A DNA stretch of 64,000 nt from Chitinophaga pinensis (lineage in GTDB: Bacteria; Bacteroidota; Bacteroidia; UKL13-3), in contig CAMBSD010000004.1 in the NCBI GenBank assembly GCA_945870425.1, positions 124,001-188,000 of the forward strand, read 5' to 3'. The notes beneath the pieces are model-generated. The model saw only the letters and a program-made list of their open reading frames with translations, did no database searches and was not told where the DNA came from. The position numbers and the translations under genes were made by a program. Shown here in pieces: positions 33,414-63,171 of the stretch (within the stretch, counting starts at the first letter, position 1; each line of letters begins with the position of its first letter).

Positions 33414-33444
33414 TTTGGCAAATTGGAAAAGCTTCCTATTTTTG
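33414..33444 (+). promoter_or_regulatory. Promoter of tRNA-Glu
   Basis: TTTG at 33414-33417, 19 bases, then TATTTTTG at 33437-33444: a full match to the Bacteroidota consensus, placed 15 bases before the tRNA. Confidence 0.85.
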
Positions 33445-33459
33445 CCGTCCCAAAAACTT

Positions 33460-33531
33460 GGCCCGTTCGTCTATCGGTTAGGACAAATGGTTTTCATCCA
33501 TTAAAGAGGGGTTCGACTCCCCTACGGGCTA
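33460..33531 (+). tRNA. tRNA-Glu (UUC)
   Basis: A 72-base cloverleaf. The acceptor stem GGCCCGT pairs with ACGGGCT, the anticodon loop reads TTTTCAT with anticodon TTC, and the T arm is GAGGGG-TTCGACT-CCCCT. The D arm has the CTATCGGTTAGG pattern usual for Glu tRNAs. CCA is not encoded. rpsO begins 41 bases later and may be on the same transcript. Confidence 0.97.
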
Positions 33532-59053: not shown

Positions 59054-61519
59054 ATGAAAAAAATATTTTCCCTTTTCCTGACAGCCTTGTCAATTGCCGC
59101 ATTTGGGCAACCCATTGTCAATTCTTACCTAAAAGACAATACCACATACCGAGAGCATTCTTTGGATATCACCTATATGAAACTTGATGTGTCGTTTAAA
59201 GAAAACGAAGGAAAAGTAATAGGTAAGGTGTCTCATAGTTTTACTGTGCTTCAACAAAAAGTAGATTCTGTATTCTTTGATGGACCGGGAATTAAAATTT
59301 CAAAATCCACTTTAAATGGACAAGAATTAAAATTCAAAGCGGTACCTACAGGATTATGGGTGTATCCCAACAAGAGCCTGAAATGGGATGAAACAGGGGT
59401 AATTGGTTTTGAATACGAAGCCAATCCTCGCAAAGGAATATATTTTATTGGTTGGAATGAAGAAGCCCCGAAAGAAAACAATCCCTTTGCTGTAAGAAAA
59501 CAAATATGGACCCAAGGACAAGGCATAGACAACCGCCAATGGATACCGATGTATGATGATATGAATGACAAGTTTATCACCGAAACTTCTATCACCTTCA
59601 ATAAGGATTACCAGGTATTATCGAATGGATTATTGGTGAAGAAAACCGCTAGCGGCAACAGCATCACATGGAATTATAAAATGAGCAAACCACATGCGGG
59701 TTATTTGTTGATGATAGCCATTGGAAAATATGCAGTTCAAACCGCTAAGAGTAAAAGTGGTGTGCCGCTGCAATATTGGTACTACCCTGAATTTGCCGAC
59801 AGAATGGGACCTACCTACCGTTATACACCTCAGATGATTGATTTTCTTGAGCGCGAAACAGGTGTCAAATATCCTTGGGAGTCCTATAGCCAAGTAATGG
59901 TACAAGATTTCATATTTGGAGCCATGGAAAATACCACTGCTACCATTTTTGGTGATTTCTTTAATGTAGATGAGCGAGCCTTCTTGGATAGAAATTATAT
60001 TGGTGTGAATTGTCATGAGATGACACATCAATGGTTTGGGGATTATATAACAGCCCGCGATGGCCGCGACACTTGGCTTCAAGAAAGTTACGCAACATAT
60101 TGGCCTAAACAGTTTAGCAAAGAATTAGATGGTGTTGAAGAATGGGATTGGCAGCGCAGAGGTCATCAAAACTCAGCGGTGGATGCAGGCAAAAAAGACA
60201 ATTATCCCGTGCATCATACAGCAGGAGGAACGGCTAGGGTATATCCAAAAGGGGCTGCTGTAATATCCATGCTTGAATATGTATTGGGGGACGAACAATG
60301 GAAAAGAGCATTGAACCATTACTTGAAACAACATGCTTATGGCAATGTTGAAACTAATGATTTGCAACAAGCCATCAAAGATAAATTGGGTTTAAACTTA
60401 GATTGGTTTTTTGACCAGTGGATTATGCGTGGTGGCGAACCTCATTATAAAGTGCAGTACCAAGATGTTACTTATGGAAATGGCTCAAGAGCCACTGAAG
60501 TAATTGTTGAACAAACACAAAAAACCGATGAAACAGTTCGTCATTTTCAAATGCCTGTGGTGATTGAAGTGCATTATGCTGATGGTAGTTTTGATAGTGT
60601 AAAGGAAATGAACAAAGAGGCTTATGAAAGGATCAAAATTCCTAATCCAAATAAGAAGGAAATAGCCTTTGTTTTGTTCGACCCAAATTCAAATATTATC
60701 AAACAAGTAACGTTTAAGAAATCATTTGAAGAGATTGAAGAACAAATTGAAAAAGCCAAATACTACCTTGATAGGTATGATGCAGCCCTGGCATTAAGGG
60801 AAATACCATTAGATACAAAACGAGAAGTATTGATAGAAGCATTAAACCGTGAAAAACATTATGGAATTATCAATGAGATTGTTTCGCAATTGATAAGTGA
60901 TAAAGACCCAAAGAGCCAAGTGGCCATGATGAACTTGATGAATATCAAACAAAAATCATCTACCCGTGAAGCGGTGTTAAAAGGATTGGTAGATATGAGT
61001 GGCCCTTGGAAGCAAATATGCATAGTGGCTCTTAGTGATAGTAGCTATGATGTAGTTAAAGTAGCCATGGAAAAACTATATCAAAAAAGCTTTGATAAAA
61101 AAACCATGGAGTATGTGTTGGAAGCTACTAAAAACACTTGGGGCATGAATAACAACATCATGATAAAACGCTATGAAATAGGCGCCCTAGCAGGATTATT
61201 GATAGATAAAAGCTTTAATCGTGAGGATGCTTTGAACAAGATTACAAGTTTTGCTTCTTCACAATATGAGTTTAGAACCCGCATACAAGCATTCAATAGC
61301 TTGAAGGTGTTGAACCACTTGGACAATGAAGTGGCCAAGAATTTATTCCAAGCCATATTGAGTCCTAATGGCAGATTAGCGGCACCTGCAGCTGAATTGG
61401 CCAACCATTTCTCTAATCAAATTAGCTATAAGAATACCATGAAAGGCTATTACCAAATGCAAAGCTATGAGCAATGGCAGAAAGACATATTAACAAAACA
61501 GTTAACATGGCTCAACTAA
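59054..61519 (+). CDS. M1-family zinc aminopeptidase
   Basis: 821 residues with a signal peptide (IFSLFLTALSIAAFGQ), so it is exported. The substrate loop is GAMENTT and the zinc site is HEMTHQWFGDYITARDGRD followed by WLQES, the HExxHx18E pattern. The C-terminal 250 residues are helical repeats, as in other M1 enzymes with HEAT-like ends. It trims N-terminal residues from peptides. It lies beyond the repeat zone and looks like a core gene. Confidence 0.95.
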   Translation: MKKIFSLFLTALSIAAFGQPIVNSYLKDNTTYREHSLDITYMKLDVSFKENEGKVIGKVSHSFTVLQQKVDSVFFDGPGIKISKSTLNGQELKFKAVPTGLWVYPNKSLKWDETGVIGFEYEANPRKGIYFIGWNEEAPKENNPFAVRKQIWTQGQGIDNRQWIPMYDDMNDKFITETSITFNKDYQVLSNGLLVKKTASGNSITWNYKMSKPHAGYLLMIAIGKYAVQTAKSKSGVPLQYWYYPEFADRMGPTYRYTPQMIDFLERETGVKYPWESYSQVMVQDFIFGAMENTTATIFGDFFNVDERAFLDRNYIGVNCHEMTHQWFGDYITARDGRDTWLQESYATYWPKQFSKELDGVEEWDWQRRGHQNSAVDAGKKDNYPVHHTAGGTARVYPKGAAVISMLEYVLGDEQWKRALNHYLKQHAYGNVETNDLQQAIKDKLGLNLDWFFDQWIMRGGEPHYKVQYQDVTYGNGSRATEVIVEQTQKTDETVRHFQMPVVIEVHYADGSFDSVKEMNKEAYERIKIPNPNKKEIAFVLFDPNSNIIKQVTFKKSFEEIEEQIEKAKYYLDRYDAALALREIPLDTKREVLIEALNREKHYGIINEIVSQLISDKDPKSQVAMMNLMNIKQKSSTREAVLKGLVDMSGPWKQICIVALSDSSYDVVKVAMEKLYQKSFDKKTMEYVLEATKNTWGMNNNIMIKRYEIGALAGLLIDKSFNREDALNKITSFASSQYEFRTRIQAFNSLKVLNHLDNEVAKNLFQAILSPNGRLAAPAAELANHFSNQISYKNTMKGYYQMQSYEQWQKDILTKQLTWLN

Positions 61520-61525
61520 TGTCAT

Positions 61526-61555
61526 TTTGTTTTTTAATTAATAATGATACTTTTG
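61526..61555 (+). promoter_or_regulatory. Promoter of metK
   Basis: TTTG at 61526-61529, 18 bases, then TACTTTTG at 61548-61555. Transcription should start near 61560, leaving a leader of about 165 nt. Confidence 0.75.
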
Positions 61556-61559
61556 CCAC

Positions 61560-61725
61560 GCATTAAGAAATTCCTAGAGGGATACCAACCGAGAAAAAAA
61601 CCACGGTGGTAAATACAATGCGGGCTTTACAAGGTCAAAATATATAATTTGAAAAACCTCACAAAGCAGCATTGGGCATTTCTTTCAAGCAATTATTTAT
61701 AACCTTAATAAAAAAATAATAAAAA
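61560..61725 (+). promoter_or_regulatory. Structured metK leader, candidate riboswitch
   Basis: Three stems can be drawn. TACC and ACCG (61583-61591, one bulged A) pair with CGGTGGTA (61604-61611). CAATGC plus GCTTT (61616-61628) pair with AAAGC plus GCATTG (61663-61674). Inside the second, AGGT pairs with ACCT (61632, 61656) and CAAA with TTTG. The leader is long for this genome. It does not match the S-box (SAM-I) pattern well. Confidence 0.5.
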
Positions 61726-62979
61726 ATGTCGTATCTATTCACATCAGAGTCCGTATCAGAAGGACACCCAGACAAAGTAGCCGATCAGATTTCGGATGCA
61801 TTAATTGACAATTTCCTAGCTTCTGACCCTGAGTCGAAAGTAGCTTGCGAAACCCTTGTAACTACTGGACAAGTAGTGCTTGCGGGTGAAGTAAAATCTT
61901 CTGCTTATTTGGACGTACAAACCATTGCTCGTGATGTAATCAAAAAAATAGGTTATACCAAAAGTGAATATATGTTTGAAGCAAATTCTTGCGGTGTGCT
62001 TTCTGCTATCCACGAGCAATCTGCTGATATCAATCAAGGTGTTGACCGTAAGAAAAAACAAGACCAAGGTGCTGGTGACCAAGGTATGATGTTTGGTTAT
62101 GCAACCAATGAAACTGACGACTATATGCCTTTGGCTTTAGACTTAGCTCATAAGATTTTGATTGAGTTAGCTGATTTGAGAAGAGAAAACAAAGCCATCA
62201 AATACCTTCGCCCGGATGCAAAAAGCCAAGTAACTTTAGAATACAATGATAACAATGTGCCTGTGCGCATTGATTCAATCGTGGTTTCTACACAACATGA
62301 CGATTTTGATGCAGAAGCTAAAATGTTAGCTAAAATCAAAAAAGATATTGTTGAGATTTTGATTCCTCGTGTTAAGAAAAAATACAAAAAATTCGCTCAT
62401 TTATTCAACGATAAAATCAATTACCATATCAACCCAACTGGTAAGTTTGTAATTGGTGGACCACATGGCGATACAGGCTTAACAGGTCGTAAAATCATCG
62501 TAGATACTTACGGTGGAAAAGGTGCACATGGTGGAGGAGCTTTCTCTGGTAAAGATCCAAGTAAAGTGGATAGAAGTGCTGCTTATGCAACACGTCACAT
62601 TGCTAAAAACTTGGTAGCTGCTGGCCTTTGCTCTGAAGTATTGGTTCAAGTAAGTTATGCCATTGGTGTTAAAGATCCTATGGGTATCTACATCAATACT
62701 TATGGTACTTCTAAAGTAAAAATGTCAGATGGAGAAATAGCTAAAAAAGTGTCAAAATTATTTGATATGACTCCTTATGGTATCGAAACGCGTTTGAAAT
62801 TGCGTAACCCTATCTATAGCGAAACTGCTGCTTATGGCCACATGGGTAGAAAAAATGAAGTAGTATCAAAAACCTTCAAATCGCCTGATGGAAAATCTAA
62901 AACCATGAAAGTAGAATTATTTACATGGGAAAAATTAGACATGGTAGATAAAGTGAAAAAAGAATTTAAAATAAAATAA
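61726..62979 (+). CDS. metK: S-adenosylmethionine synthetase
   Basis: Makes SAM from methionine and ATP. 417 residues with [34 protein letters not shown], the [20 protein letters not shown] segment, and [19 protein letters not shown]. Slightly longer than the typical 385-390 because of inserts in the middle region. Supplies methyl groups to the SET protein among others. Transcript starts from a good promoter with a long structured leader. Confidence 0.97.
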
Positions 62980-63138: not shown

Positions 63139-63171
63139 ATGGTTGGTGTTTAGCAAAGCGTCACCAACCAT
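63139..63171. repeat. Constant-loop palindrome (10-13-10)
   Basis: ATGGTTGGTG and CACCAACCAT are perfect complements around a 13-base loop TTTAGCAAAGCGT. The loop differs at two positions from that at 54145 on its minus strand, while the arms are unrelated. Confidence 0.8.

Follow-up and report, generated by a model that had tools for sequence, protein, structure and literature searches.

The leader of metK, in a 64,000-nucleotide stretch of Chitinophaga pinensis DNA (hereafter, the window), is very probably a SAM-I/IV riboswitch, in which bases of the aptamer can alternatively be taken up by a downstream switch helix. The element adds a new member to an already known class of riboswitches, with an ordinary aptamer, and feedback control of metK by S-adenosylmethionine (SAM) is very probable in this Bacteroidia lineage. 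Two computational inferences are mildly new, namely a switch-helix register that is specific to the family, and a class-wide alternation between pairing with P1 and pairing with the start region. A search of the open literature turned up no paper on how SAM-I/IV expression platforms work in Bacteroidota; because the subscription literature lay outside this search, we make no claim of priority.

The aptamer and its relatives

An Rfam covariance-model search, a comparison that the first-pass annotation of this DNA had proposed, yielded a full-length match to the SAM-I/IV riboswitch RF01725 (model positions 1-99 of 99) at 61555-61652 on the forward strand, with 53.1 bits against a cut-off of 41.1 and an E value of 7.1e-6 over the whole 64 kb. 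It is the sole riboswitch match within the window and lies directly 5' of metK, 73 nt from the ATG at 61726 (Table 1). Taken together with the comparative analysis, this match agrees with the earlier claim of a putative SAM-responsive element before metK. The accompanying suggestion of a SAM-Chlorobi motif (RF01724), made from gene context, does not hold. That motif shares the place before metK, but the other SAM families, SAM-Chlorobi, SAM-II and SMK included, give no match on 61480-61780 even at E <= 10, and we consider these three ruled out as the class by the clear match to SAM-I/IV, a member of the S-box clan CL00012. The view that the leader holds SAM-Chlorobi or a new, unrelated SAM-binding RNA is refuted by the Rfam result and retains practically no probability; in preliminary in-line probing, SAM-Chlorobi itself bound neither SAM nor SAH (PMC2864571). 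The annotation had likewise found no fit to SAM-II or SMK, and its failure to fit the S-box follows from the internal loop of P2 in SAM-I, which SAM-I/IV lacks. A pemK match at 61541-61621 (21.6 bits, cut-off 34.8), overlapping the promoter and the aptamer, was discarded as due to chance.

RF01725 is the 'SAM-I-IV-variant' of Weinberg et al. 2010 (PMC2864571), and the sequence of the solved RNA, 4L81, is given in PMC5393176. The class differs from SAM-I in missing the P2 internal loop (PMC2864571) and from SAM-IV in the undivided state of P2 and the absence of PK1 (PMC6890682). The window copy conforms to SAM-I/IV in the length of the match, the order P1-P2-P3-P5, an uninterrupted P2 (5 bp, 4-nt loop), the CAACC and P1 core and its position before metK. 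With SAM-I (S-box, RF00162, for which no match was reported on 61480-61780) it shares the clan and the SAM pocket formed by CAACC of P3, J1/2 and P1, but it lacks the P2 internal loop or kink-turn, the P2-loop pseudoknot and P4. With SAM-IV it has the core in common and, in relatives, P5 and PK2 on the 3' side, but its P2 is undivided and PK1 is absent. Unlike the solved SAM-I/IV RNA, the window copy has no P4 hairpin; the Rfam consensus structure has none either, and P4 is hence not required by the family model. PK2, which joins the P3 loop to the 3' tail, is clear in several relatives (for example, L019, L020, L035 and L048), but in the window it amounts at most to AAA/UUU (p 0.45), and in the genus as a whole to at most three A-U pairs.

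Covariation among relatives, on which the element had been staked beforehand, was found in an alignment of 39 Bacteroidia leaders, where P1, P2 and P5 all covary with compensation. The outer P1 pairs occur as G-C, U-A and A-U and as C-G and U-A, and the innermost P1 pair as U-A, C-G, U-G and G-C; pairs of P2 take two to six standard types and those of P5 three to four. The SAM-I-type core, consisting of the J1/2 purines, CAACC in P3 and the two middle P1 pairs (A-U/U-A), is present in the window and never varies across the 39 leaders. P3, which the first-pass annotation had drawn as an 8-bp stem with one bulged A (UACC-A-ACCG/CGGU-GGUA, 61583-61591 with 61604-61611), is nearly constant and hence uninformative for covariation. 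Comparison establishes both the class of the aptamer and its covarying helices. That the leader is merely long and unstructured, with a fold arisen by chance, is refuted by this comparison, by the Rfam match and by the place before metK, kept in 21 other loci of the family and in L060; the one point in favour of such a reading, to which we give next to no credence, is a promoter pattern that alone is no rarer than chance.

The poor support for PK2 in the window copy, together with the two G-U pairs of P5, may indicate a low affinity of this aptamer for SAM. The same two features, along with L061, a relative in which the element appears to have been lost, would suit a decaying SAM-I/IV copy, devoid of PK2 and of some of P5 and blind to SAM at cellular concentrations. 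We regard such decay as improbable, given that the score resembles those of relatives with PK2, the second species of the genus (L015) has almost the same element, and the switch helix has been kept (p 0.010).

The promoter boxes that had been claimed at 61526-61555 are present. As a bare pattern they carry little weight, with 5 occurrences in the window against 4.3 expected; the promoter is made credible by TTTG and TA-N-TTTTG-like boxes at the same position before other family metK leaders that carry the element. Transcription would start at about 61560, which gives a leader of about 165 nt, as had been predicted. The promoter adjoins P1, and the presumed start is the first base of P1, so that the aptamer would open the transcript. 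In family genera without the element, the distance between a promoter-like box and the metK ATG is only some 40 nt, and the long leader thus goes with the element. Elsewhere in the window, the same promoter-like pattern, as TTTG-N-TANNTTTG, occurs at 33414-33444, 15 nt before a tRNA gene (33460-33531).

Table 1. Features of the metK leader, in window coordinates
Feature	Positions	Strand	Evidence
Bacteroidota-type promoter: TTTG (61526-61529), 18 nt, TACTTTTG (61548-61555)	61526..61555	+	Pattern; same boxes in related metK leaders
SAM-I/IV aptamer, Rfam RF01725	61555..61652	+	53.1 bits, cut-off 41.1, model 1-99/99
P1 5' strand GCAUU, pairs with 61617-61621	61560..61564	+	Covaries in 39 leaders; middle A-U/U-A invariant
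J1/2 AAGAA; in the predicted SAM-free fold AAGAAAU (61565-61571) pairs with 61678-61684	61565..61569	+	Folding, shuffle comparison
P2 hairpin AUUCC-UAGA-GGGAU, no internal loop	61570..61583	+	Fold and 39-leader alignment
P3 with unpaired A of CAACC; A-rich loop L3	61583..61611	+	Rfam and alignment
Switch helix, aptamer side: CAAUGC, GCUUU	61616..61628	+	-13.6 kcal/mol, p 0.010
P1 3' strand AAUGC	61617..61621	+	Rfam and alignment
P5 GGCU/GGUC, two G-U pairs	61623..61636	+	Rfam; helix covaries in relatives
Only candidate PK2 3' side: UUU with A-run of L3; weak or lost	61648..61650	+	p 0.45 in window
Switch helix, downstream side: AAAGC, GCAUUG	61663..61674	+	Folding, shuffle and swap tests
GGCAUUUCUU: predicted partner of J1/2 (no SAM) or, through GGCAUUU, of AAAUGUC at the start codon, 61724-61730 (SAM)	61675..61684	+	Anti-5' p 0.047; start pairing p 0.066 / 0.19
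metK, S-adenosylmethionine synthetase, 417 aa	61726..62979	+	Pfam PF00438, PF02772, PF02773

The switch helix and its register

A 174-nt leader folds with -32.1 kcal/mol (z -2.58), a value equalled by 2 of 200 shuffles, and its unconstrained minimum-energy fold consists of an 11-bp stem and an outer helix, AAGAAAU/AUUUCUU. The stem, described before as a two-part pairing of CAAUGC and GCUUU (61616-61621, 61624-61628) with AAAGC and GCAUUG (61663-61667, 61669-61674), corresponds to the switch helix. It uses bases of the P1 3' strand and of the P5 5' strand, so the two stems of the first-pass annotation belong to alternative folds; alternative structures of this kind are as expected of a riboswitch. 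The aptamer-enforced fold reaches -21.0 kcal/mol compared to -32.6, that is, it is 11.6 less stable before ligand and tertiary energy are taken into account.

We measured the complementarity of 14-nt segments along each aptamer to the downstream leader of the same locus against dinucleotide shuffles. At p <= 0.05 for the best segment, 17 of the 22 family metK leaders stand out, only over J3/1, the 3' strand of P1 and the 5' strand of P5 (anti-3'). In the class loci, the segments that stand out are those over J1/2 and the 5' strand of P1 (19 of 21), and this anti-5' register recurs in six of the seven family loci that do not precede metK, including the second copy in this genome (p 0.003); related leaders not being independent, all these counts represent fewer events than sequences. 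Because the class leaders and the second copy capture the P1 5' strand and the family metK leaders the P1 3' strand, the latter appear to use a different switch register; capture of the 3' strand by the window helix likewise sets it apart from SAM-I/IV elsewhere. The separation is incomplete: three metK leaders (L026, L027 and L029) are in the anti-5' register (p 0.007-0.013), and the window has a weaker anti-5' pairing (p 0.047) as well.

As an independent control, downstream regions were swapped between leaders in 5000 permutations. For the class anti-5' pairing, matched regions give -10.4 kcal/mol against -5.6 for swapped ones, and none of the 5000 permutations was as good. For the family metK anti-3' pairing p is 0.015, and among 12 combinations the window's own pair comes out on top. 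The helix is near-continuous in L019 (-20.5 kcal/mol, compared to -13.6 in the window). Its aptamer side is held constant by the aptamer, and covariation in the helix is mostly one-sided. The existence and the place of the switch helix are established by these comparisons.

A candidate output at the start codon

Under the mechanism that we propose, the transcript would start at or beside the 5' strand of P1. In the absence of SAM, the P1 3' and P5 5' strands (61616-61628) would pair with the downstream element at 61663-61674 and J1/2 could pair with AUUUCUU (61678-61684), such that the aptamer would be broken, the A/U-rich start region open, and metK translated. With SAM present, P1 and P3 would close round the ligand and free the downstream element, of which GGCAUUU could then cover the metK start codon and lower expression, making an OFF switch. 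We infer both SAM binding and the OFF sign; plentiful SAM would most likely bring metK down.

Bacteroidota make little use of Shine-Dalgarno sequences, the masking of which is the usual readout. The weakest step of the mechanism is the output by direct covering of the metK start codon, which we propose with slightly more doubt than confidence. In the window, pairing of GGCAUUU (61675-61681) with AAAUGUC (61724-61730, which holds the AUG) is suggestive only (p 0.066 or 0.19). Among the class loci, closing the aptamer makes the start region (-14 to +5) less accessible in 18 of 20, the downstream leader then folds better than its shuffles, with a mean z of -1.8, and the segment shielding the start region usually shares bases with the anti-P1 element; in L042, the pairing AUGUAUUGA/UCAAUACAU adjoins the AUG. 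Among the family metK leaders, L019 and L022 show such covering clearly but the majority do not, and as a common rule it is not supported in the shuffle comparison (median p 0.60).

This lack of a common rule, along with the A-rich last 40 nt before the ATG, which stay largely open in either state, is compatible with another output that would keep the same aptamer and switch helix: the SAM-bound leader would be subject to Rho-dependent termination or RNase cleavage, leaving less metK mRNA. We consider this possible, albeit on the unlikely side; the leader contains no intrinsic terminator, and the relatives in the class speak for covering of the start region instead. An attenuator with an intrinsic terminator, a frequent output of SAM-I riboswitches in Firmicutes (PMC2258182), is very improbable here, given that no terminator-like site was detected in 61400-61800 and no hairpin followed by a U-run in the leader.

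Returning to start-codon covering, it could be one case of a general SAM-I/IV expression platform of Bacteroidia for mRNAs without Shine-Dalgarno sequences, an idea that we find plausible, if short of probable. A downstream element would alternate between capture of a P1 strand without SAM and cover of the A/U-rich AUG region with SAM, and in the family metK leaders capture would have moved from the 5' to the 3' strand of P1, with the second copy in the genome staying at the 5' strand. About 50 leaders with a readable switch helix, in a phylum thought to use little Shine-Dalgarno masking, make riboswitch action directly testable there.

Distribution and associated loci

SAM-I/IV matches were found in 23 of 64 genomes of the family, from 4 of its 14 genera (an order-level search gave the same 64 genomes), and in 33 of 395 sampled genomes of the class. 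In the family, 22 of 29 loci precede metK, window included. Re-examination of 30 family genomes, nearly all of them without a match, identified metK in 29. Among the leaders read, L060 carries the element at 51.3 bits, a copy missed by the stricter filter; in many others the ATG lies about 40 nt away from a promoter-like box, and the scanned leaders of that kind gave no match to any SAM family. The metK leader at L061:1440-1500 (G018) comprises the family promoter and the first nucleotides of P1 and J1/2 (CCATTAAGAAT), with the ATG coming almost immediately after them, and looks like a natural deletion of the riboswitch. The same genome has a second, partial metK match (L084).

Five class genomes, G099, G374, G164, G165 and G330, have clusters of two or three SAM-I/IV matches, about 0.1 to 1.5 kb from one another on a single contig (L030, L039, L042, L044, L046); the two in G099 are 61 bases apart. 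Some matches (L032, L034, L044, L031, L033) precede genes that are rarely linked to SAM, encoding AAA ATPase-like (GKAGTGKT motif) and TPR-like proteins.

The second SAM-I/IV copy in the window's own genome (56 bits) belongs to a group of loci in several Bacteroidia where the riboswitch stands before a small protein of about 120-140 aa (L001:1501-2075 on G000:C6, in this genome; L003, L004, L005, L025, L028, L049, L051; L088, L092). In two further members, a SAM-I/IV match on the same strand lies upstream at a distance of about 1.1 kb. Searches of Pfam and NCBIfam assigned the protein behind the second copy to no family. Its predicted fold (pLDDT 83) weakly resembles 3pjy and 3m7a, DUF192-like proteins without an assigned function (E 3e-3 to 6e-3, TM about 0.5). 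An uncharacterised protein under putative SAM control may merit a study of its own. Downstream of the leader, at 63145-63165, the window contains an inverted-repeat-like sequence, GGTGTTTAGCAAAGCGTCACC, with six copies in the genome at up to two mismatches and none in a reversed control, and two stretches more or less like it flank the second riboswitch locus (L001).
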